In this document: positions 16,701-62,600 of the stretch, piece by piece
Layout: each line of letters begins with the position of its first letter
Numbering within the stretch: position 1 is the first letter of the stretch
Assembly: GCA_960531495.1 (NCBI GenBank)
Contig: CAUIJY010000083.1
Location: forward strand, 67,001-131,000
Direction of reading: 5' to 3'
Source of the DNA: Zeus faber
Lineage: Eukaryota > Chordata > Actinopteri > Zeiformes > Zeidae
Length of the DNA stretch: 64,000 nt
Made by a program: the position numbers and the translations under genes
Notes under the pieces: model-generated
Told to the model about the DNA's origin: nothing
The model's input: only the letters and a program-made list of their open reading frames with translations
Database searches by the model: none

Positions 16701-18007
16701 CAACCCTAATCCTAAAACCCTGACCCTAACCCTAACCCTAACTCTAGCTCTAAACCTAACCCTAACCCTAATGTTAACCCTAAGACTTAACCCTAAACCT
16801 AACCCTTAGCCTAACCCTAAACCTAAGCCTAGCCCTGGTTCTAAACCTAACCCTAACCCTAACGTTAACCCTAAGACCTAGCCCTAAACCAAACCCCAAA
16901 CCTAACCCTAAACCTAACCCTTATCCTAACCCTAAAACCAAATCCTAACCCTAACCATTGACGAATAGAGGTCGTACCCAAACTCAACAAAATCCAAGAA
17001 CAAAAATATCCCACTGACAAATAGAGGTCGTACCCAAACTCTACAATATCCAATTGAAGATGGAAGAAGTTTCCCAATGACAAACTGAGACGGAACTTAC
17101 CTATACTCAACAAAATCTAAGAACATAGATATCCCACTGACAAATAGAGGTCGTACCCAAACTCTACAAAATCCAATTGAAAATGGAAGAAGTTTCCCAA
17201 TGACAACCAGAGACGGAGCTTTCCTATACTCAACAAAATCTAAGAACATAGATATCCCACGGACAAATAGAGGTCGTACCCAAACTTAACAAAATCCAAC
17301 CAACAAGAGTAGAAATATTTCCTAAAATAAACCAATTGACCGGGGGACACACACCAGGGTCTTGACGAAGCCCAGGTGGCCTGCCTCAAGGAGAGGGTGT
17401 ATAGTTTGTTTAAAAGGCTGAAACACTCAATGATCCTGAGGTACACTACTGATGAATGTGTCCTAAATTTCTAAAAGTAATCATATAGAAATGCGGAGAA
17501 AGAACAAATAAGGTGTTCTTAACCACTCTTAACAACAGGAAACAAAAAAACAAACAGGGTATTCTCAACCACTCTTAACAACTTGAAACAAAAAACAAAT
17601 AAGGTGTTCTTAACCACTCTTAACAACTGGAAACAAAAAAACAAACAGGGTATTCTCAACCACAAATATAAGACAAATTAATCTGGACCTATACTACTAA
17701 GAGGAAACAAGCATCCTTTTAAATGTAAGTCACCTTAAACCCTCGTTAGGGGACTTCTCCTTGAAGCCAGAATATGCCTATATTCTTTAACCCAAATGGG
17801 ATAACTACAAAACATGAACCTAACACTCTACCTAACATAATACGGGATTGGAGAATCTTGATAACGTGCGACGGCCCGTGCATTACCTTTGGTCCCCTAT
17901 ACCAAACTGACCATGCTGGCCAGGGGGGAACATAGGAAAAGTACTCACCAATACATACCAGGCTACCCAAACTGGGTAGACGGGATCATCAATACAGTAC
18001 TCACCCA

Positions 18008-18125
18008 CCCTAACCCTAACCCTAACCCTAACCCTAACCCTAACCCTAACCCTAACCCTAACCCTAACCCTAACCCTAACCCTAACCCTAACCCTAACCC
18101 TAACCCTAACCCTAACCCTAACCCT
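18008..18125 (+). repeat. Interstitial telomeric tract, pure (CCCTAA)n
   Basis: About 19.6 uninterrupted CCCTAA hexamers. On the left they abut the last nucleotides of core C (TCACCCA) of the truncated eleventh R1685 copy. On the right they join the middle of the D' element at TTTATGCCCG. The lack of degeneration contrasts with the Tdeg tracts and suggests a recent former chromosome end. Confidence 0.97.
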
Positions 18126-18411
18126 TTATGCCCGAACAAAATAACCCAAACAATTTAACTCACAAACCTTTTTTTCACTCTCTTCCCTTTCTCTCATGAA
18201 AATGAGAGAGTTGGGACGGTAGAGAACAGCCCGAACAGGCAGGAGGAGAATGCAGTCCGAACAGACGGCTCTCCTTCCCTCTACCTCCCTCCTACCTCCC
18301 TCTTGCTCCTTCTAAAAATAAACCTTATAATGAATTAATCTTCATAACAAACAAACTAACCGTAACCCGGAGTCTATCCCAATATACTTGGTAAACCCTC
18401 AACACATTCCC
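18126..18411 (+). repeat. D' element, single truncated copy of the 318-bp repeat
   Basis: This matches the 318-bp units at 35787-37395 but lacks their first ~30 nt, which were replaced by telomeric repeats. It contains the D-like hairpin with arms at 18189-18197 and 18202-18210 and a GAAA loop, followed by the two CGAACA hairpins. It ends in the same CCCAATATACTTGGTAAACC junction to degenerate telomeric DNA that is seen at 37381 and 49121. Confidence 0.9.
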
Positions 18412-19055
18412 AACCCTAACCCTAACCCTAACCCCTAACCCTAACCCTAACCCTAACCCTTAACATATTCCTAACCCTAACCCTAACCCTAACCCAAACC
18501 CTAAACCCTAACCCTAACCCTTAACACGAGTCACATTCCTAACCCTAACCCTAACCCTAACCCTATTAACCCTTACCCAATCCTGAATCCGGACCTAAAC
18601 CCTAAACTTAACCCCTACCCTCAACACATTCCCAACCCTAACCCTAACCCCAACCCCAACCTTAAGCTTAACTAACCCCAACCTAACTCTGAATCTAAAC
18701 CTAACCCCAACCCCTACCCTAACCATATTCCCCACCCTAACCCTAACCCTAACCCTAACCCTAACCTAGCCCTAAACCTAACCCTAAAACTAACCCTAGC
18801 CCTGGTTCTAAACCTAACCCTAACGTTAACCCTAAGACCTAGCCCTAAACCCGACCCTAAACCTAACCCTAGCGCTTAACCTAACCCTAAACCTAACCCT
18901 AAACTTAACCCTCAATCCAACCCTAAACTTAACCCTCAATCTAACCCTAAACTTAACCCTCAATCTAACCCTAAACCTAACCCTAAACCTAACCCTAAAC
19001 CTAGCCCTGAGCCTAACCTTAGACCTAACCCTAAACCTAACCTTAGCTCTAAAAC
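18412..19055 (+). repeat. Degenerate telomeric region
   Basis: CCCTAA repeats are mixed with CCCCTAA, CCCAAC, CTCAAT and AACTTAACC variants and short unique inserts such as CTTAACACATTC. The last ~250 bp become regular, alternating CCCTAAACCTAA and CCCTAAACTTAA. The same region recurs at 37396-38195 and 49136-49935 with small insertions and deletions. Confidence 0.9.
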
Positions 19056-19098
19056 CATCACTGTTACCCAATCTTTTTTATATATAAAAAAAACGTAA

Positions 19099-19187
<89 letters not shown>

Positions 19188-19420
19188 CCACCCCTTTCCC
19201 CAACCCTAAAATCTCTAATTACTACAGATGTAGTTAAAATGAATAGTTATGTGGGAAGGTTTGTTTTTATATATATATATTTTTTTCATATATATTTTTT
19301 TATTATGTTTTTATTATATTTTTTATATATATTTTTTTATATATTTATAGATTTTTTCTAAATTATTTATGTATTTATTTATTAGTTTTTTCTATTTATT
19401 TATATATTTATATAATAACT
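19056..19420. repeat. AT-rich low-complexity tract with an 86-nt poly-A
   Basis: The tract contains a poly-A run at 19100-19185, a C-rich patch (CCCCACCCCTTTCCCC), and then ~160 bp made almost only of TA and T runs. The sister copies at 26480, 38220 and 49960 have only about 8 A at the same place. No gene is seen. Confidence 0.9.
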
Positions 19421-19730
19421 ACGGACATTCCAACACGGAGCGTTCTCCGTGCCCAAGTGTATAGCCCCACGCGTAGTGTGTGTAGTCAGCCGGATCCACC
19501 GAGAGTGATGGAGTGCCACTTTAATCGCGGCGCGAGTTTCGCTCGCGATGCCGATGGACTGCCTTTACTTCTCTTTGAGGGCCGGTTTTCTCGGCGGCGA
19601 GTTGCTCGCTGTCAACCGGATTGTTTTGGACAGAAGTTGTCCACCCGGAGATTAATTTGTTTTCCCGCTGTCATGTCATTACAAGCGCTACCGCTATCGC
19701 TCATGGTACCGTTTTTTTAAAAAAAACCTA
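19421..19730 (+). ncRNA. GC-rich island G, copy 0: candidate structured non-coding RNA
   Basis: This island is offset about 7308 bp from the copy described at 26721 and nearly identical to it. The hairpins CACGGAG-CGTT-CTCCGTG, CGCGAG-TTTCG-CTCGCG and GGACA-GAAGT-TGTCC are intact. The long stem loses only its basal pair, through GTCAACC instead of GTCGACC. All three open frames seen in other copies are damaged here: the ATG of the long + frame is ATA, the second + frame has a TAA, and the - frame has a TGA. That argues against a protein in this copy. Confidence 0.35.
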
Positions 19731-20215
19731 CAACATCCCCACTTTAATGAAACACTTCCGCGATGTTTTTTCTGGTTAAAATAATTTCAGTAGGCTATTG
19801 AAAATTATTTAACATACAAAAACATAGTCAACTAATAAAATAGAGGAATTATGGGATAATTATAGAGGACCAATCAGAGGATGAACATCATGCTAGAGAC
19901 TCCCCTTCAGGAAGTAGCGGCCGTTCCTACGGGAAAAAAAACGCTATGAACCATGGGTACTTTTAATTTTAATTTCTTCACGCATTTTATTGCACGAAAA
20001 AATATTTATATGCCACCAATCGTTTAATGAAATTCTAAATATAATATTCAGGACCCCAACTACATTATTAAAAACATAAAATCCCAGGAACCAGGAGGGT
20101 GAAAGATATAACCCGAGTAGACCCTATACGAAATTTAAGTGATAAAATAATGAAGACCTGGCTGGGGTAAGTGTTATCCAAGGTTTCTAGGTGTAAAACT
20201 AAAAAAAACATAGAT
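19731..20215. other. AT-rich spacer between G and E
   Basis: About 480 bp of AT-rich sequence with no recognisable gene. It contains a perfect AATTAT-GGG-ATAATT hairpin and a TAGCG/CGCTA stem near 19917-19955, which corresponds to the six-pair stem at 27223-27253. Confidence 0.5.
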
Positions 20216-20360
20216 ATATTGGACAATTCCTGGAGTTGTGCGGTGTACGGGACACAGGAATTGTTCCTTTAAAAGTAGAATGCTGTTTTTACAGCAATTT
20301 AAATTTTCACACCCTTATTTCCTCATCCCCTGGTCCAAACTTAGGGACCAGGCCGTGGAT
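20216..20360 (+). ncRNA. E head, copy 0: three successive hairpins
   Basis: The arms at 20221-20232 and 20255-20267 form a 12-bp helix with a single bulged T. A TGCTGT-TTTT-ACAGCA hairpin and then CCTGGTCC-AAACTTAG-GGACCAGG (8 bp) follow. The sequence equals that of the copy at 27528. Two overlapping 62- and 67-codon frames cover it, but they overlap in competing frames and have no recognisable domain. Confidence 0.35.
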
Positions 20361-20690
20361 GCACCGGGACCTAGACCTTTTAGAACTAACTACCTATCTC
20401 CATCCTTTAACCCAACCTGTATAATAATACCTAGGAGATAACAGTAACCACTTACTCTACTAGGTCTAATTTATCCTTACTCCCAAGACATACCCGTAAT
20501 CAGATCTTATTATCCATTATAACCGAAGTAACCAAACTATCATCAAACAGACGATAGCTTACCCAAGAAAATAACCAAAACCCGACCAACTTGAATAACG
20601 TTAGAACAACGGTATTTCAATTTAGCCAAACTCGACTATCTCGTCTAACAACAGCAGAAATGTACCTGGGATAAATTAAAAGGCAACGTA
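20361..20690 (+). repeat. Block E, copy 0
   Basis: Moderately AT-rich sequence, repeated at 27668, 39408 and 51148, with a clearly diverged relative (E') at 30166 and 41906. No gene or RNA family is recognised beyond the hairpins at its head. Confidence 0.75.
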
Positions 20691-20984
20691 TCCAAGCTCA
20701 ACAAAGTCCAACCAATAATACCGGAGGCACCTTAAGAAAAAATAGTGATACAAACTTACCCAAACTCAACAGAATCCTAGGACAGAAATATCTTACCGAC
20801 AAAGAAAGACCGTACCCAAACTCAACAAAATCCGAATGACCATAGTAAGAACTACCCAATGACAAAGACAGAACCTAACCAAAAAAAACTCAAAGTCTAA
20901 GAAAAAGAATATCCTACCAACGTATAAAGGTCGAACCCAAATGCAACGAAATCCAACTTACAAATTTTGTTTAAATAAAACCAA
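20691..20984 (+). repeat. Diverged F60-type repeats, copy 0
   Basis: Phrases of the type (T)ACCCAAACTCAACA(A/G)AATCC recur about every 60 bp, alternating with GGACAGAAATATCTTACC-like halves. This places the block in the F60 family although it is far from the R-unit version. Confidence 0.7.
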
Positions 20985-21130
20985 TTGACCGGGGGACACA
21001 CACCAGGGTCTTGATCAAACCCAGGTGGCCTGCCTCAAGGAGAGGGTGTATAGTTTGTTTAAAAGGCTGAAACACTCAATGATCCTGAGGTACACTACTG
21101 ATGAATGTGTCCTAAATTCCTAAAAGTAAT
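20985..21130 (+). ncRNA. Core B, 12-kb-family version, copy 0
   Basis: It differs from the R version at four positions, three of them clustered in the apical seven bases of the main hairpin (GATCAAA for GACGAAG). The stem is kept by switching which base bulges: here C bulges and T pairs with A, whereas in the R version T bulges and C pairs with G. Confidence 0.35.
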
Positions 21131-21827
21131 CATACGGAAATTAAGAGAAAGAAGAAACAGGGTACACTTAACCATCCGTAACAACTTGAATCAAAAAACA
21201 ATAAGGTGTACCTAACCACGCTTAAACTCGTAATAAAAAACAAACAAGGTTTTCGTACCATCCGTAACAACTTTAAACAAGAAACTAACAAGGTGTACTT
21301 AACCACGCTTAAACCCGCAATAAGGAACAAACAAGGTGTTCTGAACCAATCCGTAAAAACTTGAAACAGAAACAAATAAGGTGTACCTAACCACGCTTAA
21401 ACCCGTAACCAAAAAAAACAAACAAGGCGATCTTAACCATCCGTAACAACTTCAAACAAGAAACTAACAAGGTGTACTTAACCACGCTTAAACCCGTAAT
21501 AAGGAACAAACAAGGTGTTCTGAACCAATCCGTAAAAACTTGAAACAGAAACAAATAAGGTGTACCTAACCATGCTTAAACCCGTAACCAAAAAAAACAA
21601 ACAAGGTGATCTTAACCATTCGTAACAACTTGAAACAAAAACAAACAAAGTTTATTTAACCACGCTTAAACCCATAACAAATGAACACCCAAAGAAAACA
21701 AATGGGGTGTTCTTAACCATCCATAAACAACTGGAAACAAAAACAAACAAGGTGTATTTAACCACGTTTAAACCCAGAACAAAAAACAAACAAAACGTTC
21801 GTAACCATCCGCAACAACTTGAACAGG
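21131..21827 (+). repeat. F42 array, copy 0
   Basis: About 16 units of ~42 bp alternate between AAGGTGTACCTAACCACGCT-type and AAGGTGTTCTGAACCAATCC-type repeats, giving a higher-order period of about 169 bp. The reverse-strand frames beginning MFLFQVFTDWF are translations of this repeat. Confidence 0.9.
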
Positions 21828-22020
21828 AACCTAACTCTCTACCTAACATAATACGGGATTGGAGAATCTTGATAACGTGCGACGGCCCGTGCATTACCTT
21901 TGGTCCCCTATACCAAACTGCCCTTGCTGGCCAGGGGGGAACATAGGAAAAAGTACTCACCAATACATACCAGGCTACCCAAACTGGGTAGACGGGATCA
22001 TCAATACAGTACTCAACCAA
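21828..22020 (+). repeat. Core C copy, joined to F42
   Basis: A full core C of the 12-kb-family version (CTGCCCTTGCTGG, TACTCAACCA). To its right it joins CCTAATAATAAAAAAC and a new F42 array. Confidence 0.9.
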
Positions 22021-22619
22021 CCTAATAATAAAAAACAAACAAGGTTTTCTTACCATCCGTAACAACTTTAAACAAGAAACTAACAAGATGTACTTAACCA
22101 CACTTAAACCCGTAATAAGGAACAAACAAGGTGTTCTGAACCAATCCGTAAAAACTTGAAACAGAAACAAATAAGGTGTACCTAACCACGCTTAAACCCG
22201 TAACCAAAAAAACAAACAAGGTGATCTTAACCATCCGTAACAACTTTAAACAAGAAACTAACAAGGTGTACTTAACCACGCTTAAACCCGTAATAAGGAA
22301 CAAACAAGGTGTTCTGAACCAATCCGTAAAAACTTGAAACAGAAACAAATAAGGTGTACCTAACCACGCTTAAACCCGTAACCAAAAAAACAAACAAGGT
22401 GATCTTAACCATTCGTAACAACTTGAAACAAAAACAAACAAGGTTTATTTAACCACGCTTAAACCCATAACAAATGAACACCCAAATAAAACAAATAGGG
22501 TGTTCTTAACCATCCATAACAACTTGAAACAAAAACCAACAAGGTGTATTTTGCCACGGTTAAACCCAGAACAAAAAAACAAACAAAATGTTCTTAACCA
22601 TCCGCAACAACCTGAACAG
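22021..22619 (+). repeat. F42 array
   Basis: A further array of ~42-bp repeats with the ~169-bp higher-order pattern. It ends in AACAACCTGAACAG before the next core C. Confidence 0.88.
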
Positions 22620-22880
22620 GAACCTAACTCTCTACCTAACATAATACGGGATTGGAGAATCTTGATAACGTGCGACGGCCCGTGCATTACCTTTGGTCCC
22701 CTATACCAAACTGCCCTTGCTGGCCAGGGGGGAACATAGGAAAAGTACTCACCAATACATACCAGGCTACCCAAACTGGGTAGACGGGATCATCAATACA
22801 GTACTCAACCAAACTCACCAATACATACCATGCTACCCAAACTGGGTAGACGGGATCATCAATACAGTACTCAACCAACC
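22620..22880 (+). repeat. Core C copy plus a tandem duplicate of its tail
   Basis: A full core C ends at about 22812 and is followed by a second copy of its last ~65 nt, from ACTCACCAATAC to TCAACCAACC, to 22880. The duplicated piece is bounded by the two AGTACTCA repeats inside C, as expected for slippage or unequal exchange between them. The second CTACCC/GGGTAG hairpin is intact. Confidence 0.9.
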
Positions 22881-23337
22881 AAAAAAACAATAAGGTGTAC
22901 CTAACCACGCTTAAACTCGAAATAGAAAAACAAACAAGGTTTTCTTACCATCGGTAACAACTTTAAACAAGAAACTAACAAGATGTACTTAACCACGCTT
23001 AAACCCGTAATAAGGAACAAACAAGGTGTTCTGAACCAATCCGTAAAAACTTGAAACGGAAACAAATAAGGTGTTCCTAACCACGCTTAGACCCGTAACC
23101 AAAAAAACAAACAAGGTGATCTTAACCATTCGTAACAACTTGAAACAAAAACAAACAAGGTTTATTTAACCACGCTTAAACCCATAACAAATGAACACCC
23201 AAAGAAAACAAATAGGGTGTTCTTAACCATCCATAAACAACTGGAAACAAAAACAAACAAGGTGTATTTAACCACGTTTAAACCCAGAACAAAAAACAAA
23301 CAAAACGTTCTTAACCATCCGCAACAACTTGAACAGG
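22881..23337 (+). repeat. F42 array
   Basis: Units of ~42 bp as before, with point differences from neighbouring arrays. They lead into core C at 23338. Confidence 0.88.
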
Positions 23338-23530
23338 AACCTAACTCTCTACCTAACATAATACGGGATTGGAGAATCTTGATAACGTGCGACGGCCCGT
23401 GCATTACCTTTGGTCCCCTATACCAAACTGCCCTTGCTGGCCAGGGGGGAACATAGGAAAAGTACTCACCAATACATACCAGGCTACCCAAACTGGGTAG
23501 ACGGGATCATCAATACAGTACTCAACCAAC
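23338..23530 (+). repeat. Core C copy joined to the telomere-like part of an R unit
   Basis: A full core C whose right end runs through CCTAACCCTAACCCTAAAACC straight into the degenerate telomeric tract of the 1553-bp family. It is another C-to-telomere-repeat junction, but with only about two intact hexamers. Confidence 0.9.
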
Positions 23531-26053
23531 CTAACCCTAACCCTAAAACCAAATCCTAACCCTAACCATTGACGAATAGAGGTCGTACCCAAACTCAACA
23601 AAATCCAAGGAAGAAAAAAAATATCCCACTGACAAATAGAGGTCGTACCCAAACTCTACAATATCCAATTGAAGGTGGAAGAAGTTTCCCAATGACAACC
23701 AGAGACGGAGCTTACCTATACTCAACAAAATCTAAGAACATAGATATCCCACGGACAAATAGAGGTCGTACCCAAACTAAACAAAATCCAACCAACAAGA
23801 GTAGAAATATTTCCTAAAATAAACCAATTGACCGGGGGACACACACCAGGGTCTTGACGAAGCCCAGGTGGCCTGCCTCAAGGAGAGGGTGTATAGTTTG
23901 TTTAAAAGGCTGAAACACTCAATGATCCTGAGGTACACTACTGATGAATGTGTCCTAAATTTCTAAAAGTAATCATATAGAAATGCGGAGAAAGAACAAA
24001 TAAGGTGTTCTTAACCACTCTTAACAACAGGAAACAAAAAAACAAACAGGGTATTCTCAACCACTCTTAACAACTTGAAACAAAAAACAAATAAGGTGTT
24101 CTTAACCACTCTTAACAACTGGAAACAAAAAAACAAACAGGGTATTCTCAACCACAAATATAAGACAAATTAATCGGGACCTATACTACTAAGAGGAAAC
24201 AAGCATCCTTTTAAATGTAAGTCACCTTAAACCCTCGTTAGGGGACTTCTCCTTGAAGCCAGAATATGCCTATATTCTTTAACCCAAATGGGATAACTAC
24301 AAAACATGAACCTAACACTCTACCTAACATAATACGGGATTGGAGAATCTTGATAACGTGCGACGGCCCGTGCATTACCTTTGGTCCCCTATACCAAACT
24401 GACCATGCTGGCCAGGGGGGAACATAGGAAAAGTACTCACCAATACATACCAGGCTACCCAAACTGGGTAGACGGGATCATCAATACAGTACTCACCCAA
24501 CCTAATCTAGCCTGTGCCTCGGAAAGCAGATTCTCCTTATAACCCATTATATGTATTATCTTACCAAATCTCTCTCCCCTTTCTTTCCTCCTCTTAAAGG
24601 CGTTAACATGGCGCAAGATAAGGTGTACAACAACTTCCAACTATTGATTAGAGTCTATTCTCATAAATTAACAACTATACAAAATAACAGCTTACAATTT
24701 TTTTTCTCTTTTTTCATTCTTTTTCTCACTCTCTTCCCCTTCTCTCAGGAAACTGAGAGAGCTGGGACGGTAGAGAATAGCCCGAACAGGCAGGAGGAGA
24801 ATGCAGTCCGAACAGACGGCTCTCCTTCCCTCTACCTCCCTTCTACATATACTTCTCCTCCACTTCCCTCTCCTCTCCAACCCTAATCCTAAAACCCTGA
24901 CCCTAACCCTAACCCTAACTCTAGCTCTAAACCTAACCCTAACCCTAATGTTAACCCTAAACCTAACCCTTAGCCTAACCCTAAACCTAAGCCTAGCCCT
25001 GGTTCTAAACCTAACCCTAACCCTAACGTTAACCCTAAGACCTAGCCCTAAACCAAACCCCAAACCTAACCCTAAACCTAACCCTTATCCTAACCCTAAA
25101 ACCAAATCCTAACCCTAACCATTGACGAATAGAGGTCGTACCCAAACTCAACAAAATCCAAGGAAGAAAAAAAATATCCCACTGACAAATAGAGGTCGTA
25201 CCCAAACTCTACAATATCCAATTGAAGGTGGAAGAAGTTTCCCAATGACAACCAGAGACGGAGCTTACCTATACTCAACAAAATCTAAGAACATAGATAT
25301 CCCACGGACAAATAGAGGTCGTACCCAAACTAAACAAAATCCAACCAACAAGAGTAGAAATATTTCCTAAAATAAACCAATTGACCGGGGGACACACACC
25401 AGGGTCTTGACGAAGCCCAGGTGGCCTGCCTCAAGGAGAGGGTGTATAGTTTGTTTAAAAGGCTGAAACACTCAATGATCCTGAGGTACACTACTGATGA
25501 ATGTGTCCTAAATTTCTAAAAGTAATCATATAGAAATGCGGAGAAAGAACAAATAAGGTGTTCTTAACCACTCTTAACAACAGGAAACAAAAAAACAAAC
25601 AGGGTATTCTCAACCACTCTTAACAACTTGAAACAAAAAACAAATAAGGTGTTCTTAACCACTCTTAACAACTGGAAACAAAAAAACAAACAGGGTATTC
25701 TCAACCACAAATATAAGACAAATTAATCGGGACCTATACTACTAAGAGGAAACAAGCATCCTTTTAAATGTAAGTCACCTTAAACCCTCGTTAGGGGACT
25801 TCTCCTTGAAGCCAGAATATGCCTATATTCTTTAACCCAAATGGGATAACTACAAAACATGAACCTAACACTCTACCTAACATAATACGGGATTGGAGAA
25901 TCTTGATAACGTGCGACGGCCCGTGCATTACCTTTGGTCCCCTATACCAAACTGACCATGCTGGCCAGGGGGGAACATAGGAAAAGTACTCACCAATACA
26001 TACCAGGCTACCCAAACTGGGTAGACGGGATCATCAATACAGTACTCACCCAA
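23531..26053 (+). repeat. R1553 array, about 1.6 copies of a 1553-bp R unit
   Basis: Same module order as R1685. F60 copies start near 23576, 23637 and 23760, and again 1553 bp later. Core B is at about 23820 and 25373, core C at 24309-24502 and 25862-26053, D at about 24690-24882, and Tdeg at 24882-25125. It is shorter than R1685 mainly through one fewer ~122-bp F60 dimer and a short gap in Tdeg. The second unit is cut at the end of core C, as in the other arrays. Confidence 0.95.
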
Positions 26054-26328
26054 CCTAACCCTAACCCTAACCCTAACCCTAACCCTAACCCTAACCCTAA
26101 CCCTAACCCTAACCCTAACCCTAACCCTAACCCTAACCCTAACCCTAACCCTAACCCTAACCCTAACCCTAACCCTAACCCCTAACCCCTAACCCCTAAC
26201 CCTAACCCTAACCCCTAACCCCTAACCCTAACCCTAACCCCTAACCCTAACCCTAACCCTAACCCTAACCCTAACCCTAACCCTAACCCCTAACCCTAAC
26301 CCCTAACCCTAACCCTAACCCTAACCCT
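26054..26328 (+). repeat. Interstitial telomeric tract, CCCTAA then mixed CCCTAA/CCCCTAA
   Basis: About 21 perfect CCCTAA hexamers lie next to core C (CACCCAA). They are followed by ~150 bp in which CCCCTAA heptamers are interspersed singly and in pairs. The graded change from pure to variant repeats, away from the C junction, resembles a real telomere, where the inner part carries variant repeats. Confidence 0.96.
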
Positions 26329-27026: not shown

Positions 27027-27525
27027 AAAAAAAACCTACAACATCCCCACGTTAATGAAACACTTCCGCGATGTTTTTTCTGGTTAAAATAATTTCAGTA
27101 GGCTATTGAAAATTATTTAACATACAAAAACATAGTCAACTAATAAAATAGAGGAATTATGGGATAATTATAGAGGACCAATCAGAGGATGAACATCATG
27201 CTAGAGACTCCCCTTCAGGAAGTAGCGGCCGTTCCTACCGAAAAAAACCGCTATGAACCATGGGTACTTTTAATTTTAATTTCTTCACGCATTTTATTGC
27301 ACGAAAAAATATTTATATGCCACCAATCGTTTAATGAAATTCTAAATATAATATTCAGGACCCCAACTACATTATTAAAAACATAAAATCCCAGGAACCA
27401 GGAGGGTGAAAGACATAACCCGAGTAGACCCTATACGAAATTTAAGTGATAAAATAATGAAGACCTGGCTGGGGTAAGTGTTATCCAAGGTTTCTAGGTG
27501 TAAAACTAAAAAAAACATAGATATA
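27027..27525. other. AT-rich spacer with two hairpins
   Basis: No gene is recognised. TAGCGG (27223-27228) pairs with CCGCTA (27248-27253). In composite copies 2 and 3 the second arm is CTGCTA, which keeps pairing through a G-T pair; copy 0 keeps five of the six pairs. A perfect AATTAT-GGG-ATAATT hairpin lies upstream. A GTAAGT occurs near 27473. Confidence 0.45.
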
Positions 27526-27667
27526 TTGGACAATTCCTGGAGTTGTGCGGTGTACGGGACACAGGAATTGTTCCTTTAAAAGTAGAATGCTGTTTTTACA
27601 GCAATTTAAATTTTCACACCCTTATTTCCTCATCCCCTGGTCCAAACTTAGGGACCAGGCCGTGGAT
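27526..27667 (+). ncRNA. E head, copy 1: 12-bp bulged hairpin, TTTT-loop hairpin and 8-bp hairpin
   Basis: The arms 27528-27539 and 27562-27574 pair over 12 bp with one bulged T and a 22-nt loop. TGCTGT-TTTT-ACAGCA follows at 27588-27603, and CCTGGTCC-AAACTTAG-GGACCAGG at 27636-27659. In the diverged E' block (30166) the last hairpin reads CCTGGTTC/GGACCAGG, so the change is from a C-G to a T-G pair and the helix survives. The three hairpins in 130 nt suggest an RNA, either separate or continuous with island G. Confidence 0.4.
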
Positions 27668-28284
27668 GCACCGGGACCTAGACCTTTTAGAACTAACTAC
27701 CTATCTCCATCCTTTAACCCAACCTGTATAATAATACCTAGGAGATAACAGTAACCACTTACTCTACTAGGTCTAATTTATCCTTACTCCCAAGACATAC
27801 CCGTAATCAGATCTTATTATCCATTATAACCGAAGTAACCAAACTATCATCAAACAGACGATAGCTTACCCAAGAAAATAACCAAAACCCGACCAACTTG
27901 AATAACGTTAGAACAACGGTATTTCAATTTAGCCAAACTCGACTACCTCGTCTAACAACAGCAGAAATGTACCTGGGATAAATTAAAAGGCAACGTATCC
28001 AAGCTCAACAAAGTCCAACCAATAATACCGGAGGCACCTTAAGAAAAAATAGTGATACAAACTTACCCAAACTCAACAGAATCCTAGGACAGAAATATCT
28101 TACCGACAAAGAAAGACCGTACCCAAACTCAACAAAATCCGAATGACCATAGTAAGAACTACCCAATGACAAAGACAGAACCTAACCAAAAAAAACTCAA
28201 AGTCTAAGGAAAAGAATATCCTACCAACGTATAAAGGTCGTACCCAAATGCAACGAAATCCAACGAACAAATTTTTTTTAAATA
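27668..28284 (+). repeat. Block E and diverged F60 repeats, copy 1
   Basis: E occupies roughly 27668-28010 and is followed by F60-type repeats to 28284. It is almost the same as copy 0, with scattered substitutions such as GACTACCTCG for GACTATCTCG. No gene is recognised. Confidence 0.75.
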
Positions 28285-28445
28285 AAACCAATTGACCGGG
28301 GGACACACACCAGGGTCTTGATCAAACCCAGGTGGCCTGCCTCAAGGAGAGGGTGTATAGTTTGTTTAAAAGGCTGAAACACTCAATGATCCTGAGGTAC
28401 ACTACTGATGAATGTGTCCTAAATTCCTAAAAGTAATCATATGGA
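28285..28445 (+). ncRNA. Core B, 12-kb-family version, copy 1a
   Basis: As at 20985, with the GATCAAA apical version of the hairpin. To its right it joins a different F42 start (ATGGAAATTCAGAG) from copy 0, so the junction at the right edge of B varies. Confidence 0.35.
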
Positions 28446-51764: not shown

Positions 51765-51913
51765 AAACCAATTGACCGGGGGACACACACCAGGGTCTTG
51801 ATCAAACCCAGGTGGCCTGCCTCAAGGAGAGGGTGTATAGTTTGTTTAAAAGGCTGAAACACTCAATGATCCTGAGGTACACTACTGATGAATGTGTCCT
51901 AAATTCCTAAAAG
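51765..51913 (+). ncRNA. Core B, copy 3, at a deletion junction
   Basis: Left of B the sequence follows the E/F60 side (copy 2 at 40025). Right of B it follows the F42 array found after the second B of copy 2 (42771). About 2.6 kb, including the GC island and E', is therefore missing. Copy 0 has the same arrangement at 20985-21130. Confidence 0.4.
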
Positions 51914-54220
51914 TAATCATACGGAAATTAAGAGAAAGAAGAAACAGGGTACACTTAACCATCCGTAACAACTTGAATCAAAAAACAATAAGGTGTACCT
52001 AACCACGCTTAAACTCGTAATAAAAAACAAACAAGGTTTTCGTACCATCCGTAACAACTTTAAACAAGAAACTAACAAGGTGTACTTAACCACGCTTAAA
52101 CCCGCAATAAGGAACAAACAAGGTGTTCTGAACCAATCCGTAAAAACTTGAAACAGAAACAAATAAGGTGTACCTAACCACGCTTAAACCCGTAACCAAA
52201 AAAACAAACAAGGCGATCTTAACCATCCGTAACAACTTTAAACAAGAAACTAACAAGGTGTACTTAACCACGCTTAAACCCGTAATAAGGAACAAACAAG
52301 GTGTTCTGAACCAATCCGTAAAAACTTGAAACAGAAACAAATAAGGTGTACCTAACCATGCTTAAACCCGTAACCAAAAAAACAAACAAGGTGATCTTAA
52401 CCATTCGTAACAACTTGAAACAAAAACAAACAAAGTTTATTTAACCACGCTTAAACCCATAACAAATGAACACCCAAAGAAAACAAATAGGGTGTTCTTA
52501 ACCATCCATAAACAACTGGAAACAAAAACAAACAAGGTGTATTTAACCACGTTTAAACCCAGAACAAAAAACAAACAAAACGTTCTTAACCATCCGCAAC
52601 AACTTGAACAGGAACCTAACTCTCTACCTAACATAATACGGGATTGGAGAATCTTGATAACGTGCGACGGCCCGTGCATTACCTTTGGTCCCCTATACCA
52701 AACTGCCCTTGCTGGCCAGGGGGGAACATAGGAAAAAGTACTCACCAATACATACCAGGCTACCCAAACTGGGTAGACGGGATCATCAATACAGTACTCA
52801 ACCAACCTAATAATAAAAAACAAACAAGGTTTTCTTACCATCCGTAACAACTTTAAACAAGAAACTAACAAGGTGTACTTAACCACGCTTAAACCCGTAA
52901 TAAGGAACAAACAAGGTGTTCTGAACCAATCCGTAAAAACTTGAAACAGAAACAAATAAGGTGTACCTAACCACGCTTAAACCCGTAACCAAAAAAACAA
53001 ACAAGGTGATCTTAACCATCCGTAACAACTTTAAACAAGAAACTAACAAGGTGTACTTAACCACGCTTAAACCCGTAATAAGGAACAAACAAGGTGTTCT
53101 GAACCAATCCGTAAAAACTTGAAACAGAAACAAATAAGGTGTACCTAACCACGCTTAAACCCGTAACCAAAAAAACAAACAAGGTGATCTTAACCATTCG
53201 TAACAACTTGAAACAAAAACAAACAAGGTTTATTTAACCACGCTTAAACCCATAACAAATGAACACCCAAATAAAACAAATAGGGTGTTCTTAACCATCC
53301 ATAACAACTTGAAACAAAAACCAACAAGGTGTATTTTGCCACGGTTAAACCCAGAACAAAAAACAAACAAAACGTTCTTAACCATCCGCAACAACTTGAA
53401 CAGGAACCTAACTCTCTACCTAACATAATACGGGATTGGAGAATCTTGATAACGTGCGACGGCCCGTGCATTACCTTTGGTCCCCTATACCAAACTGCCC
53501 TTGCTGGCCAGGGGGGAACATGGGAAAAGTACTCACCAATACATACCAGGCTACCCAAACGGGGTAGACGGGATCATCAATACAGTACTCAACCAACCTA
53601 ACCTAGCCTGTGCCTCGGAAAGCAGATTCTCCTTATAACCCATTACAGGTATTATCTTACCAAGACCGTGCATTACCTTTGGTCCCCTATACCAAACTTC
53701 CCATGCTGGCCAGGGGGGAACATAGGAATATTACTCACCAATACATACCAGGATACCCAACTGGGTAAACGGAATCATCAATACAGTACTCAACAAATCA
53801 AACAAGGTGATCTTAACCATTCGTAACAACTTGGAACAAAAACAAATAAGGTTTATTTAACCACTCTTAAACCCATAACAAATGAACACCCAAAAAAAAC
53901 AAATAGTGTGTTCTTAACCATCCATAACAACTTGAAACAAAAACCAACAAGGTGTATTTTGCCACGGTTAAACCCAGAACAAAAAAACAAACAAAATGTT
54001 CTTAACCATCCGCAACAACCTGAACAGGAACCTAACTCTCTACCTAACATAATACGGGATTGGAGAATCTTGATAACGTGCGACGGCCCGTGCATTACCT
54101 TTGGTCCCCTATACCAAACTGCCCTTGCTGGCCAGGGGGGAACATAGGAAAAGTACTCACCAATACATACCAGGCTACCCAAACTGGGTAGACGGGATCA
54201 TCAATACAGTACTCAACCAA
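51914..54220 (+). repeat. F42 and C modules of composite copy 3
   Basis: Offset of 9143 from copy 2: F42 51914-52611, C 52612-52805, F42, C 53404-53597, Rt fragment 53598-53662, truncated C 53663-53795, F42, C 54028-54220. The block stops at the end of C, where copies 1 and 2 continue with a C tail and an R unit. Confidence 0.92.
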
Positions 54221-54273
54221 CCTAACCCTAACCCTAACCCTAACCCTAACCCTAACCCTAACCCTAACCCTAA
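54221..54273 (+). repeat. Interstitial telomeric tract, about 9 x CCCTAA
   Basis: Left flank is the end of core C (CTCAACCAA). Right flank is the middle of core B at GGCTGAAACAC, cut about 90 nt into B. The hexamers are pure. Confidence 0.97.
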
Positions 54274-57200
54274 GGCTGAAACACTCAATGATCCTGAGGT
54301 ACACTACTGATGAATGTGTCCTAAATTTCTAAAAGTAATCATATAGAAATGCGGAGAAAGAACAAATAAGGTGTTCTTAACCACTCTTAACAACTGGAAA
54401 CAAAAAAACAAACAGGGTATTCTCAACCACTCTTAACAACTTGAAACAAAAAACAAATAAGGTGTTCTTAACCACTCTTAAAGAAAACAACTACGTCTAC
54501 CAACGACTAATAAAGCATCTAAACAACAAATATAAGCAAATTACTCTGGACCTATACTACTAAGAGGAAACAAGCATCCTTTTAAATGTAAGTCACCTTA
54601 AACCCTCGTTAGGGGACTTCTCCTTGAAGCCAGAATATGCCAATATTCTTTAACCCAAATGGGATAACTACAAAACATGAACCTAACACTCTACCTAACA
54701 TAATACGGGATTGGAGAATCTTGATAACGTGCGACGGCCCGTGCATTACCTTTGGTCCCCTATACCAAACTGACCATGCTGGCCAGGGGGGAACATAGGA
54801 AAAGTACTCACCAATACATACCAGGCTACCCAAACTGGGTAGACGGGATCATCAATACAGTACTCACCCAACCTAATCTAGCCTGTGCCTCGGAAAGCAG
54901 ATTCTCCTTATAACCCATTATATGTATTATCTAACCAAATCTCTCTCCCCTTTCTTTCCTCCTCTTAAAGGCATTGACATGGCGCAAGATAAGGTGTACA
55001 ACAACTTCCAACTATTGATTAGAGTCTATTCTCATAAATTAACAACTATACAAAATAACTTAGCTTACAATTTTTTTTTTTTTTTTTTTTCTCTTTTTTC
55101 ATTCTTTTTCTCACTCTCTTCCCCTTCTCTCAGGAAACTGAGAGAGCTGGGACGGTAGAGAATAGCCCGAACAGGCAGGAGGAGAATGCAGTCCGAACAG
55201 ACGGCTCTCCTTCCCTCTACCTCCCTTCTACATATACTTCTCCTCCACTTCCCTCTCCTCTCCAACCCTAATCCTAAAACCCTGACCCTAACCCTAACCC
55301 TAACTCTAGCTCTAAACCTAACCCTAACCCTAACGTTAACCCTAAGACTTAACCCTAAACCTAACCCTTAGCCTAACCCTAAACCTAAGCCTAGCCCTGG
55401 TTCTAAACCTAACCCTAACACTAACGTTAACCCTAAGACCTAGCCCTAAACCTAACCCCAAACCTAACCCTAAACCTAACCCTTATCCTAACCCTAAAAC
55501 CAAATCCTAACCCTAACCATTGACGAATAGAGGTCGTACCCAAACTCAACAAAATCCAAGAACAAAAATATCCCACTGAGAAATAGAGGTCGTACCCAAA
55601 CTCTACAAAATCCAATTGAAAATGGAAGAAGTTTCCCAATGACAAACAGAGACGGAACTTACCTATACTCAACTAAATCTAAGAACATAGATATACCACG
55701 GACAAATAGAGGTCGTACCCAAACTCATCAAAATCCAACCAACAAGAGTAGAAATATTTCCTAAAATAAACCAATTGACCGGGGGACACACACCAGGGTC
55801 TTGACGAAGCCCAGGTGGCCTGCCTCAAGGAGAGGGTGTATAGTTTGTTTAAAAGGCTGAAACACTCAATGATCCTGAGGTACACTACTGATGAATGTGT
55901 CCTAAATTTCTAAAAGTAATCATATAGAAATGCGGAGAAAGAACAAATAAGGTGTTCTTAACCACTCTTAACAACTGGAAACAAAAAAACAAACAGGGTA
56001 TTCTCAACCACTCTTAACAACTTGAAACAAAAAACAAATAAGGTGTTCTTAACCACTCTTAAAGAAAACAACTACGTCTACCAACGACTAATAAAGCATC
56101 TAAACAACAAATATAAGCAAATTACTCTGGACCTATACTACTAAGAGGAAACAAGCATCCTTTTAAATGTAAGTCACCTTAAACCCTCGTTAGGGGACTT
56201 CTCCTTGAAGCCAGAATATGCCAATATTCTTTAACCCAAATGGGATAACTACAAAACATGAACCTAACACTCTACCTAACATAATACGGGATTGGAGAAT
56301 CTTGATAACGTGCGACGGCCCGTGCATTACCTTTGGTCCCCTATACCAAACTGACCATGCTGGCCAGGGGGGAACATAGGAAAAGTACTCACCAATACAT
56401 ACCAGGCTACCCAAACTGGGTAGACGGGATCATCAATACAGTACTCACCCAACCTAATCTAGCCTGTGCCTCGGAAAGCAGATTCTCCTTATAACCCATT
56501 ATATGTATTATCTAACCAAATCTCTCTCCCCTTTCTTTCCTCCTCTTAAAGGCATTGACATGGCGCAAGATAAGGTGTACAACAACTTCCAACTATTGAT
56601 TAGAGTCTATTCTCATAAATTAACAACTATACAAAATAACTTAGCTTACAATTTTTTTTTTTTTTTCTCTTTTTTCATTCTTTTTCTCACTCTCTTCCCC
56701 TTCTCTCAGGAAACTGAGAGAGCTGGGACGGTAGAGAATAGCCCGAACAGGCAGGAGGAGAATGCAGTCCGAACAGACGGCTCTCCTTCCCTCTACCTCC
56801 CTTCTACATATACTTCTCCTCCACTTCCCTCTCCTCTCCAACCCTAATCCTAAAACCCTGACCCTAACCCTAACCCTAACTCTAGCTCTAAACCTAACCC
56901 TAACCCTAACGTTAACCCTAAGACTTAACCCTAAACCTAACCCTTAGCCTAACCCTAAACCTAAGCCTAGCCCTGGTTCTAAACCTAACCCTAACACTAA
57001 CGTTAACCCTAAGACCTAGCCCTAAACCTAACCCCAAACCTAACCCTAAACCTAACCCTTATCCTAACCCTAAAACCAAATCCTAACCCTAACCATTGAC
57101 GAATAGAGGTCGTACCCAAACTCAACAAAATCCAAGAACAAAAATATCCCACTGAGAAATAGAGGTCGTACCCAAACTCTACAAAATCCAATTGAAAATG

Positions 57201-59603
57201 GAAGAAGTTTCCCAATGACAAACAGAGACGGAACTTACCTATACTCAACTAAATCTAAGAACATAGATATACCACGGACAAATAGAGGTCGTACCCAAAC
57301 TCATCAAAATCCAACCAACAAGAGTAGAAATATTTCCTAAAATAAACCAATTGACCGGGGGACACACACCAGGGTCTTGACGAAGCCCAGGTGGCCTGCC
57401 TCAAGGAGAGGGTGTATAGTTTGTTTAAAAGGCTGAAACACTCAATGATCCTGAGGTACACTACTGATGAATGTGTCCTAAATTTCTAAAAGTAATCATA
57501 TAGAAATGCGGAGAAAGAACAAATAAGGTGTTCTTAACCACTCTTAACAACTGGAAACAAAAAAACAAACAGGGTATTCTCAACCACTCTTAACAACTTG
57601 AAACAAAAAACAAATAAGGTGTTCTTAACCACTCTTAAAGAAAACAACTACGTCTACCAACGACTAATAAAGCATCTAAACAACAAATATAAGCAAATTA
57701 CTCTGGACCTATACTACTAAGAGGAAACAAGCATCCTTTTAAATGTAAGTCACCTTAAACCCTCGTTAGGGGACTTCTCCTTGAAGCCAGAATATGCCAA
57801 TATTCTTTAACCCAAATGGGATAACTACAAAACATGAACCTAACACTCTACCTAACATAATACGGGATTGGAGAATCTTGATAACGTGCGACGGCCCGTG
57901 CATTACCTTTGGTCCCCTATACCAAACTGACCATGCTGGCCAGGGGGGAACATAGGAAAAGTACTCACCAATACATACCAGGCTACCCAAACTGGGTAGA
58001 CGGGATCATCAATACAGTACTCACCCAACCTAATCTAGCCTGTGCCTCGGAAAGCAGATTCTCCTTATAACCCATTATATGTATTATCTAACCAAATCTC
58101 TCTCCCCTTTCTTTCCTCCTCTTAAAGGCATTGACATGGCGCAAGATAAGGTGTACAACAACTTCCAACTATTGATTAGAGTCTATTCTCATAAATTAAC
58201 AACTATACAAAATAACTTAGCTTACAATTTTTTTTTTTTTTTCTCTTTTTTCATTCTTTTTCTCACTCTCTTCCCCTTCTCTCAGGAAACTGAGAGAGCT
58301 GGGACGGTAGAGAATAGCCCGAACAGGCAGGAGGAGAATGCAGTCCGAACAGACGGCTCTCCTTCCCTCTACCTCCCTTCTACATATACTTCTCCTCCAC
58401 TTCCCTCTCCTCTCCAACCCTAATCCTAAAACCCTGACCCTAACCCTAACCCTAACTCTAGCTCTAAACCTAACCCTAACCCTAACGTTAACCCTAAGAC
58501 TTAACCCTAAACCTAACCCTTAGCCTAACCCTAAACCTAAGCCTAGCCCTGGTTCTAAACCTAACCCTAACACTAACGTTAACCCTAAGACCTAGCCCTA
58601 AACCTAACCCCAAACCTAACCCTAAACCTAACCCTTATCCTAACCCTAAAACCAAATCCTAACCCTAACCATTGACGAATAGAGGTCGTACCCAAACTCA
58701 ACAAAATCCAAGAACAAAAATATCCCACTGAGAAATAGAGGTCGTACCCAAACTCTACAAAATCCAATTGAAAATGGAAGAAGTTTCCCAATGACAAACA
58801 GAGACGGAACTTACCTATACTCAACTAAATCTAAGAACATAGATATACCACGGACAAATAGAGGTCGTACCCAAACTCATCAAAATCCAACCAACAAGAG
58901 TAGAAATATTTCCTAAAATAAACCAATTGACCGGGGGACACACACCAGGGTCTTGACGAAGCCCAGGTGGCCTGCCTCAAGGAGAGGGTGTATAGTTTGT
59001 TTAAAAGGCTGAAACACTCAATGATCCTGAGGTACACTACTGATGAATGTGTCCTAAATTTCTAAAAGTAATCATATAGAAATGCGGAGAAAGAACAAAT
59101 AAGGTGTTCTTAACCACTCTTAACAACTGGAAACAAAAAAACAAACAGGGTATTCTCAACCACTCTTAACAACTTGAAACAAAAAACAAATAAGGTGTTC
59201 TTAACCACTCTTAAAGAAAACAACTACGTCTACCAACGACTAATAAAGCATCTAAACAACAAATATAAGCAAATTACTCTGGACCTATACTACTAAGAGG
59301 AAACAAGCATCCTTTTAAATGTAAGTCACCTTAAACCCTCGTTAGGGGACTTCTCCTTGAAGCCAGAATATGCCAATATTCTTTAACCCAAATGGGATAA
59401 CTACAAAACATGAACCTAACACTCTACCTAACATAATACGGGATTGGAGAATCTTGATAACGTGCGACGGCCCGTGCATTACCTTTGGTCCCCTATACCA
59501 AACTGACCATGCTGGCCAGGGGGGAACATAGGAAAAGTACTCACCAATACATACCAGGCTACCCAAACTGGGTAGACGGGATCATCAATACAGTACTCAC
59601 CCA
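54274..59603 (+). repeat. R1576 array, about 3.4 copies
   Basis: The first unit starts in the middle of core B. Core C lies at 54677-54870, then at intervals of 1581, 1576 and 1576 bp. The extra 5 bp in the first interval is a longer poly-T (20 against 15) at 55071-55090. Family-specific features are AAAGAAAACAACTACGTCTACC in place of the last F42 repeats, GGCATTGACATGG in Rt, and CTAACACTAACGTT in Tdeg. The array ends at the right edge of core C. Confidence 0.95.
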
Positions 59604-59686
59604 ACCTAACCCTAACCCTAACCCTAACCCTAACCCTAACCCTAACCCTAACCCTAACCCTAACCTAACCTAACCCTAACCCTAAC
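59604..59686 (+). repeat. Interstitial telomeric tract with CCTAA variants
   Basis: About ten CCCTAA hexamers follow core C (CACCCAA), then TAACCTAACCTAACC, in which two repeats lack one C. The right flank is an F42 unit starting at ACAAATAAGG, so the R1566 array to the right is truncated inside F42. Confidence 0.96.
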
Positions 59687-62600
59687 CACAAATAAGGTGT
59701 TCTTAACCACTCTTAACAACAGGAAACAAAAAAACAAACAGGGTATTCTCAACCACTCTTAACAACTTGAAACAAAAAACAAATAAGGTGTTCTTAACCA
59801 CTCTTAACAACTGGAAACAAAAAAACAAACAGGGTATTCTCAACCACAAATATAAGACAAATTAATCTGGACCTATACTACTAAGAGGAAACAAGCATCC
59901 TTTTAAATGTAAGTCACCTTAAACCCTCGTTAGGGGACTTCTCCTTGAAGCCAGAATATGCCTATATTCTTTAACCCAAATGGGATAACTACAAAACATG
60001 AACCTAACACTCTACCTAACATAATACGGGATTGGAGAATCTTGATAACGTGCGACGGCCCGTGCATTACCTTTGGTCCCCTATACCAAACTGACCATGC
60101 TGGCCAGGGGGGAACATAGGAAAAGTACTCACCAATACATACCAGGCTACCCAAACTGGGTAGACGGGATCATCAATACAGTACTCACCCAACCTAATCT
60201 AGCCTGTGCCTCGGAAAGCAGATTCTCCTTATAACCCATTATATGTATTATCTTACCAAATCTCTCTCCCCTTTCTTTCCTCCTCTTAAAGGCGTTAACA
60301 TGGCGCAAGATAAGGTGAACAACAACTTCCAACTATTGACTAGAGTCTATTCTCATAAATTAACAACTATACAAAATAACTTAGCTTACAATTTTTTTTT
60401 CTCTTTTTTCATTCTTTTTCTCACTCTCTTCCCCTTCTCTCAGGAAACTGAGAGAGCTGGGACGGTAGAGAATAGCCCGAACAGGCAGGAGGAGAATGCA
60501 GTCCGAACAGACGGCTCTCCTTCCCTCTACCTCCCTTCTACATATACTTCTCCTCCACTTCCCTCTCCTCTCCAACCCTAATCCTAAAACCCTGACCCTA
60601 ACCCTAACCCTAACTCTAGCTCTAAACCTAACCCTAACCCTAATGTTAACCCTAAGACTTAACCCTAAACCTAACCCTTAGCCTAACCCTAAACCTAAGC
60701 CTAGCCCTGGTTCTAAACCTAACCCTAACCCTAACGTTAACCCTAAGACCTAGCCCTAAACCAAACCCCAAACCTAACCCTAAACCTAACCCTTATCCTA
60801 ACCCTAAAACCAAATCCTAACCCTAACCATTGACGAATAGAGGTCGTACCCAAACTCAACAAAATCCAAGGAAAAAAAACATCCCACTGACAAATAGAGG
60901 TCGTACCCAAACTCTACAATATCCAATTGAAGATGGAAGAAGTTTCCCAATGACAACCAGAGACGGAGCTTACCTATACTCAACAAAATCTAAGAACATA
61001 GATATCCCACGGACAAATAGAGGTCGTACCCAAACTAAACAAAATCCAACCAACAAGAGTAGAAATATTTCCTAAAATAAACCAATTGACCGGGGGACAC
61101 ACACCAGGGTCTTGACGAAGCCCAGGTGGCCTGCCTCAAGGAGAGGGTGTATAGTTTGTTTAAAAGGCTGAAACACTCAATGATCCTGAGGTACACTACT
61201 GATGAATGTGTCCTAAATTTCTAAAAGTAATCATATAAGAATGCGGAGAAAGAACAAATAAGGTGTTCTTAACCACTCTTAACAACAGGAAACAAAAAAA
61301 CAAACAGGGTATTCTCAACCACTCTTAACAACTTGAAACAAAAAACAAATAAGGTGTTCTTAACCACTCTTAACAACTGGAAACAAAAAAACAAACAGGG
61401 TATTCTCAACCACAAATATAAGACAAATTAATCTGGACCTATACTACTAAGAGGAAACAAGCATCCTTTTAAATGTAAGTCACCTTAAACCCTCGTTAGG
61501 GGACTTCTCCTTGAAGCCAGAATATGCCTATATTCTTTAACCCAAATGGGATAACTACAAAACATGAACCTAACACTCTACCTAACATAATACGGGATTG
61601 GAGAATCTTGATAACGTGCGACGGCCCGTGCATTACCTTTGGTCCCCTATACCAAACTGACCATGCTGGCCAGGGGGGAACATAGGAAAAGTACTCACCA
61701 ATACATACCAGGCTACCCAAACTGGGTAGACGGGATCATCAATACAGTACTCACCCAACCTAATCTAGCCTGTGCCTCGGAAAGCAGATTCTCCTTATAA
61801 CCCATTATATGTATTATCTTACCAAATCTCTCTCCCCTTTCTTTCCTCCTCTTAAAGGCGTTAACATGGCGCAAGATAAGGTGAACAACAACTTCCAACT
61901 ATTGACTAGAGTCTATTCTCATAAATTAACAACTATACAAAATAACTTAGCTTACAATTTTTTTTTCTCTTTTTTCATTCTTTTTCTCACTCTCTTCCCC
62001 TTCTCTCAGGAAACTGAGAGAGCTGGGACGGTAGAGAATAGCCCGAACAGGCAGGAGGAGAATGCAGTCCGAACAGACGGCTCTCCTTCCCTCTACCTCC
62101 CTTCTACATATACTTCTCCTCCACTTCCCTCTCCTCTCCAACCCTAATCCTAAAACCCTGACCCTAACCCTAACCCTAACTCTAGCTCTAAACCTAACCC
62201 TAACCCTAATGTTAACCCTAAGACTTAACCCTAAACCTAACCCTTAGCCTAACCCTAAACCTAAGCCTAGCCCTGGTTCTAAACCTAACCCTAACCCTAA
62301 CGTTAACCCTAAGACCTAGCCCTAAACCAAACCCCAAACCTAACCCTAAACCTAACCCTTATCCTAACCCTAAAACCAAATCCTAACCCTAACCATTGAC
62401 GAATAGAGGTCGTACCCAAACTCAACAAAATCCAAGGAAAAAAAACATCCCACTGACAAATAGAGGTCGTACCCAAACTCTACAATATCCAATTGAAGAT
62501 GGAAGAAGTTTCCCAATGACAACCAGAGACGGAGCTTACCTATACTCAACAAAATCTAAGAACATAGATATCCCACGGACAAATAGAGGTCGTACCCAAA

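Follow-up and report, generated by a model that had tools for sequence, protein, structure and literature searches.

Results

Layout of the window

The window analysed here is a stretch of 64,000 nt from Zeus faber (C89:67001-131000, where C89 is our label for contig CAUIJY010000083.1; the assembly holds 803 Mb in 153 contigs). Its subject is core C, a subtelomeric sequence of ∼190 bp whose right edge, ...CAATACAGTACTCACCCA, stands directly to the left of a series of interstitial CCCTAA tracts with differing right neighbours. C89 is 141 kb long and consists of 5 kb of N, a 10.4-kb telomere (5002-15416) and then subtelomeric repeats up to its right end; the chromosome end is on its left side, and left and right are also called outer and inner (or proximal) below. 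Window coordinates are used unless a contig is named, and all features are on the + strand.

Six tracts which the first-pass annotation had placed at 18008, 26054, 34942, 46682, 54221 and 59604 are all present, and in each case the left neighbour ends near the same nucleotide of C, as it had claimed. With a slash marking the junction, this neighbour is ...ATCAATACAGTACTCACCCA/CCCTAA at 18008, 34942 and 46682, ...CACCCAA/CCTAACCC at 26054 and 59604, and ...CAACCAA/CCTAACCC at 54221. The right neighbours are all different except at 34942 and 46682, which are copies within an 11.74-kb duplication and leave five independent tracts in the window. The first of these fossil telomeres (18008..18125, 19 units and a partial one) lies between a core C at 17818..18007 and mid-D' sequence. 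The next (26054..26328, ∼44 units including CCCCTAA variants) borders a degenerate telomere-like tract, and the 8 units at 34942..34990, with their copy at 46682..46730, border a core C cut ∼96 bp from its own edge. Nine units at 54221..54273, behind a CAACC-type C edge (54215), run into mid-B sequence, and 14 units with variants at 59605..59688 run into the middle of 46-mer repeats. A further C-edge tract lies outside the window at C89:138155 (window coordinate 71155).

A period scan of C89 found six kilobase-scale tandem arrays, and the inner end of five of them is a C edge. Their units measure 1685 bp (17.8 copies at C89:55082-85016, self-alignment 99.99%; the inner 10.7 copies fill 1..18007), 5873 bp (4.6 copies), 1553 bp (1.6 copies, 23528..26048, edge at 26048), 1576/1581 bp (∼3.4 copies, 54274..59599, edge at 59599) and 1566 bp (7.3 copies, 59689..64000 and on to window coordinate 71149, where the edge abuts another tract). 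The exception is the 11.74-kb tandem duplication (27503..51950, ∼2.1 copies) of an F/D block containing a C-edge tract, which has no C edge at its proximal end. Another F/D block (18126..23524) ends proximally in a CAACC-type C edge at 23524. The outer ends of the arrays fall at different points and their units are of B-type or F/D-type make-up, the inner edge being identical throughout. As a whole, C89 reads as a stack of layers with the oldest rightmost. A 318-bp satellite (35788-37393, 5.1 copies at 99%) directly follows a C edge spelled CAACCAAC/GTATCCC and recurs in other blocks.

The outer neighbour of the tracts is constant and polar

A test set unselected for C was formed by the whole of C89 (141 kb) and the initial 10 kb each of C1, C3, C7 and C9. 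Besides live telomeres it holds 11 perfect runs of at least 6 units, three of which continue an interrupted tract after a variant repeat. The C edge stands immediately to the left of all 8 separate tracts that remain (7 independent, given the duplicated pair). No tract of at least 6 perfect units was found at six further contig starts examined.

Genome-wide, we counted 1561 intact C edges (494 + 1067), of which 1104 (334 + 770) continue into the standard sequence CCTAAYCTAGCC and 189 (83 + 106) abut a telomere tract. The 83 junctions consist of the C edge, 0-6 nt and (CCCTAA)3, the 106 have the form CAMCCAACCTAACCC..., and the 189 are not 189 independent events, some of them lying in amplified arrays (three on C2 are ∼7.75 kb apart). 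On contigs of known length (at least 27 Mb) all 123 of 123 junctions have C on the outer and the tract on the inner side; they are spread over 23 contig ends and lie no more than 195 kb from the end. Outside this count are 22 of the 83, on smaller contigs, and, from the 106, 38 among the 100 matches listed, on C14, C22 or smaller contigs, plus the 6 outside that listing. The pattern noted in the annotation is thus confirmed and extends beyond the window.

The opposite pattern at other subtelomeres, variable left and constant right flanks, was not seen in the ends examined, seven AAACC-type tract starts not being followed up. Near the ends of C1-C9, 12 of the 14 class-A tract starts among 100 matches listed of 279 are C edges; of the other two, C3:31649 lies inside a C-edge tract and C9:117290 outside the C arrays. 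Among the class-C starts, all 20 of the CAACC type near ends are C edges (100 matches listed of 253). The seven AAACC-type starts, near the ends of C2, C4 and C5 in the same 100 of 253, may be variant repeats inside tracts or belong to the degenerate module.

Short CCCTAA runs within that degenerate telomere-like module were considered as fossil telomeres and rejected. Their flanks are constant on both sides (TTCCCAA/ and TTCCCCA/ on the left) and only their length varies, as in module-internal microsatellites; they occur at C89:17067 and 17449, in repeated copies, and at 18414, 18735, 37417, 37811, 49157 and 49551 of the window. Other telomere-like repeats lie apart from C. The one starting at C9:117290 (L068, C9:117100-117500) is an interstitial repeat of ∼10 units in a retroelement pol fragment, which we take to be gypsy-like, and looks like an insertion at a repaired break. 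Clusters in chromosome interiors, at C2:46.27-46.32 Mb, C3:3.13-3.16 Mb, C6:34.55 Mb and C9:5.05-5.09 Mb, are each one-stranded among the matches listed.

The edge of core C is fixed with or without telomere repeats

The C edges had first been located by a word close to the edge, and they were retested with seeds inside C in the unselected sequence. With the innermost seed (95 matches), 52 copies continue into the standard unit, 33 end 5-11 nt beyond ...ACTCA, 10 copies of decayed type end at ...ACTCA and none of the 95 ends before it. The next seed (84 matches) has one earlier stop, at the end of a sampled stretch. Two outer seeds have additional stops at -63 and -33, attributed to one-base indels or to the decayed type, the inner seeds showing that the same copies continue. 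The right edge of unselected C copies therefore falls within 0-11 nt, and no such copy is truly cut further left.

The sampled stretches contain 173 edges, 57 with the standard neighbour, 63 with a tract and 53, in 21 spellings, with other right neighbours. These are degenerate telomere-like sequence or come from the middle of B, C, D or F, except that one spelling of the 21 is really a tract. Nineteen of the 21 retain 4-12 nt after ...ACTCA and two decayed ones retain 2. The telomeric joins use the same zone. In a sample of 64 C-edge tracts (56 of them chosen for having a C edge, mostly from the 83-junction class; 59 are closed), the leading spellings are CACCCA/CCCTAA (31), CACCCAA/CCTAACCC (11) and CACCCAA/CCCTAA (10).

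The annotation had regarded the constant edge as marking how new material was joined outside an old telomere. This stands at the tracts; however, sequence lacking telomere repeats is also attached at this edge, and tandem arrays of quite different composition begin there, so that the edge cannot be a mark of telomere joining only. For the re-extension step, these joins and array starts shift weight to the alternative which the annotation had mentioned, an element with a fixed C end.

The inner neighbour is variable and the joins look healed

The 59 closed C-edge tracts have 56 distinct right neighbours, a few of which are interruptions within a longer telomere-like tract. Compared with C89 and four contig starts, the 185-400 nt on the inner side of tracts on C1, C3, C4, C6, C8, C16, C20 and C21 gave no match, and the flank on C19 a single weak one of 36 nt. 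On C1, C3 and C4 the junction is the innermost C edge among the matches listed. The simplest reading is that the ends with unmatched flanks once bore an ordinary telomere there, the outer material being added later. C2 was dropped from this group: inward of its innermost C-edge tract among the matches listed (L036, C2:52872000-52873400) the sequence is 86% identical to the D region of C89 and, judged by this similarity, probably represents an older subtelomeric layer, not plain chromosomal DNA. The C5 flank (L061) also matches subtelomeric sequence.

Among 59 distinct inner joins of tracts and live telomeres, uncut parent sequence was available for 41; after exclusion of 15 in telomere-like sequence, 26 remained, three of them live telomeres. 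The overlap between telomere and parent averages 1.88 nt against 0.83 in a simulation of random joining (P = 0.0002), with zero overlap in 5 of the 26, one of which has 2 extra nt. This excess of microhomology on the inner side supports healing by telomerase.

Live telomeres join the arrays at four different points: in F on C89, between the 46-mers and C on C1, in the degenerate tract on C3 and in core C on C7. On C7 the telomere caps C ∼104 bp from its edge, and that edge is followed directly by an older tract of ∼108 units. This is what the annotation's model predicts for a healed end before its next extension. Truncation followed by telomere healing, and several such cycles stacked outward, are thus supported by the variable inner flanks, the excess microhomology and live telomeres capping the same modules elsewhere.

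The closed old tracts are short (median 14 units, 39 of 59 with no more than 20, maximum 108) against at least 272, 669, ∼1490 and ∼1735 units in the four live telomeres. Either extension takes place when telomeres are nearly gone or the tracts shrank later.

Ultra-short C inserts within tracts were considered as signs of abortive copying and discarded, the search pattern being too loose (the 100 matches listed of 184 lie in chromosome interiors); one apparent 10-nt C insert lies in a tract on C17. At L047 (C4:37919950-37921050) two C pieces of ∼64 bp with the same starting base lie between three tracts, either through tandem duplication or through two additions healed at an identical point.

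Coding capacity and telomerase RNA

C89 has 48 open reading frames of at least 120 aa. Two of them are the telomere itself and the others reach at most 179 aa; five representative frames have no Pfam match. A 159-aa frame (50030-50506), near-identical in at least 4 copies on C89, likewise has no Pfam match. Within the window no Rfam family reaches its gathering threshold, and two weak sub-threshold matches beside C are taken as chance.

The genome contains both long live telomeres and a telomerase RNA gene, found as one match over the cut-off to Telomerase-vert (RF00024, 115.7 bits; L087, C11:15583954-15584310) with the template CTAACCCTAAA. The idea that C is a copy of this RNA was rejected, since the similarity between its locus and C89 is confined to T-rich stretches (best E 0.024).

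Discussion

Polarity, a fixed outer edge, a variable inner edge, microhomology of the healing type and arrays anchored at C are the observations from which we start. From them we infer truncation, copying and the order of events, and we favour, with a probability of about 0.55, a model in which the layered ends result from repeated truncation, healing by telomerase and extension from a fixed entry site, in a vertebrate whose genome includes a gene for telomerase RNA. A chromosome end would first be truncated at an arbitrary point, as the variable inner flanks suggest. Telomerase would then add TTAGGG to the broken end, often via a few nucleotides of chance homology, the step to which the overlap statistics apply. 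Next, this telomere, which would mostly be short at that stage, or in some cases an uncapped broken end, would prime the copying of a template, entering at the telomere-like stretch CAMCCAACCTAAYC at the right edge of C and proceeding outward through C and beyond; here the edge is fixed by observation and the copying is what it points to. The added unit would often be amplified into a homogeneous tandem array before the cycle restarts. By analogy, C would work like the 3' end of a non-autonomous retroelement attached to chromosome ends, in the style of Athena/terminons, MoTeR2 or HeT-A.

Several results weigh against this model. No reverse transcriptase was seen among the 48 frames of C89, no genome-wide search for a partner carrying one having been made, and the predicted RNA fold of C is unremarkable (z -0.36). 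Non-telomeric joins at the C edge show no excess homology (average overlap 0 over 19 spellings with a parent), and the position of the edge varies over ∼9 nt. The two commonest telomeric spellings are one base apart and, by inspection, in register with the lower-strand TTAGG of C, as though a TTAGGGT end had paired with the edge; annealing to DNA would fit as well. Nor do healing points cluster around C edges: 7 of 41 fall within 200 bp of one, where 12.7% would be expected (P = 0.26), so that nothing hints at abortive short copies. Arrays of nearly the same length are found at different ends, with 1695 bp on C1 and 1695-1696 on C4, 1580 on C1 and 1581 on C89, and 1565 on C3 and 1566 on C89, so templates or donors may be shared between ends. 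(A whole-unit search returned C1 at 98%, the sole candidate contig scored, and has little bearing on donor ends.) Finally, all evidence comes from one assembly.

Within the model the template could be of more than one kind. We tentatively put RNA first, at less than even odds and slightly lowered in our estimate by the near-recurrence of array lengths. An RNA with its 3' end at C explains both the joins of bare ends at C and the failure to use the better telomere homology in the degenerate tract. A DNA template, a circle or another chromosome end copied by break-induced replication, is possible at somewhat longer odds; it accounts for arrays that are homogeneous and nearly equal in length from end to end, and for units without coding sequence. 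The last option, unlikely as a part of the model, is that homologous recombination spread the junctions from a few ancestral C/tract donors; this would give the constant left flank by inheritance and leave the non-telomeric joins unexplained. In its most specific form the RNA version is rather doubtful: a non-coding subtelomeric RNA with CAMCCAACCUAAYC might serve as a telomerase-like template for telomeric or bare 3' ends, with a reverse transcriptase acting in trans (telomerase itself, or an enzyme of a long interspersed nuclear element or Penelope), and might, in alternation with healing by telomerase, build up to ∼195 kb at chromosome ends. A vertebrate with ordinary telomerase repeats would then possess a second, sequence-templated route to longer chromosome ends.

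Outside the model, the explanation that survives best, and which still falls well short of even odds, is extension templated by DNA, as in alternative lengthening of telomeres (ALT), in the templates for ALT called TALT, or in Kluyveromyces lactis. Here the telomere-like heptamer of the C edge would be the point at which a short telomere invades a linear or circular subtelomeric unit, copying then proceeding outward by break-induced or rolling-circle replication. The register of the commonest junctions with C's own CCTAA speaks for it, as do the near-perfectly homogeneous arrays that start at the C edge as if from a rolling circle, units without recognised coding sequence, and near-equal array lengths that fit shared templates. 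However, every unit also contains ∼250 bp of degenerate telomere sequence in which as many as three exact repeats stand side by side. This would be a better landing site, and yet none of the 8 separate unselected tracts is entered there; ends without telomere repeats join at the C edge too.

Less likely is descent by homologous recombination, in which one or a few old C/tract junctions act as donors and later short telomeres, using long homology, invade the interstitial tract and copy C together with the sequence outside it. Constant left and variable right flanks would then follow automatically. The dominance of a few spellings (31 CCCA, 11 CCCAACCTAA and 10 CCCAA in the 64-tract sample, drawn mostly from the 83-junction class), the form CAMCCAACCTAA of 106 of the 189 genome-wide junctions and the near-equal array lengths also agree with it. 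C edges attached to non-telomeric sequence are left unexplained by it, though; depending on the tract, 3 to 29 canonical repeats separate the first variant repeat from the C edge, and joins beside non-subtelomeric flanks show several spellings (CCCA, CCCAA, ACCA and CCCACCCA).

An assembly artefact, with repeats misjoined or collapsed, might be suspected from long and highly homogeneous arrays on an unplaced 141-kb contig but is very improbable, given that the junction type recurs at 23 contig ends with one polarity in 123 of 123 cases and differing inner flanks. Least probable of all is that telomerase read past its template into its own RNA: telomere repeats with a constant flank in one orientation do resemble the TERC-ITS loci (interstitial telomeric sequences, ITS, with telomerase RNA; PMC8537989), but the flank beside the CUAACCCUAA template in the one gene found differs from C.

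Comparison with known systems places C near the end-attached elements. In Drosophila, HeT-A and TART sit on chromosome ends by a fixed 3' end, with variable outer truncation and outward growth; here, in contrast, C is non-coding and telomerase-type repeats cap many layers. Of the traits of such elements we observe a fixed proximal (3') end with uniform orientation to the chromosome end (the 123 junctions), short telomeric repeats at the 3' end (the 64 C-edge tracts) and outer (5') truncation (the variable outer healing points). An intact reverse transcriptase inside the element was not found among the C89 frames, the longest non-telomeric one having 179 aa. Giardia is the host of the Gil elements. 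GilM, GilT and GilD lie head to tail between subtelomere and telomere and, like Athena/terminons of bdelloid rotifers, encode a reverse transcriptase (PMC5537684), whereas none was seen in the 141 kb here. MoTeR1 and MoTeR2 of Magnaporthe (PMC7367193) stand head-to-tail in telomeres, are 5'-truncated and have TTAGGG spacers of half a repeat to more than 20; MoTeR2 lacks the reverse transcriptase region and shares its end sequences with MoTeR1, and the arrays are thought to amplify also by D-loop or rolling-circle replication. Our case differs in that no reverse transcriptase-bearing partner was seen (with the limit on searching given above), and in a shared end of 190 bp with different blocks behind it, a vertebrate host and up to ∼195 kb per end.

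TALT of C. elegans and mTALT of mouse embryonic stem cells (PMC9066243, PMC7889907) are subtelomeric units bordered by telomere repeats which are duplicated head-to-tail in a uniform direction and rebuild telomeres; the mTALT observations come from Terc-knockout cells, and TALT is described as a relic left by the repair of damaged telomeres. C units are likewise bordered by telomeric repeats in one direction at several ends, but this genome has a telomerase RNA gene, and its additions, which alternate with healing, are found at many chromosome ends. The TERC-ITS of vertebrates (PMC8537989) combine telomere repeats with a flank of RNA-templated origin; C, in contrast, is polar and subtelomeric, and the telomerase RNA gene found is not its source. 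We recognised no report on the C element, or on such a fixed-edge stack in a vertebrate, in the literature search results. What is new here are the non-telomeric joins at the C edge, the lack of copies cut further left in the unselected sequence and the start of five of the six C89 arrays at that edge.

End-attached elements and ALT templates are known from flies, rotifers, fungi, protists, worms and telomerase-knockout mouse cells. In Zeus faber, a vertebrate in which a telomerase RNA gene was found, 23 contig ends carry a similar layered record, with old telomeres marking each cycle. Such layers would let the order, position and number of past events of end loss and rescue be read for each chromosome, and the growth mode of vertebrate subtelomeres becomes directly testable.

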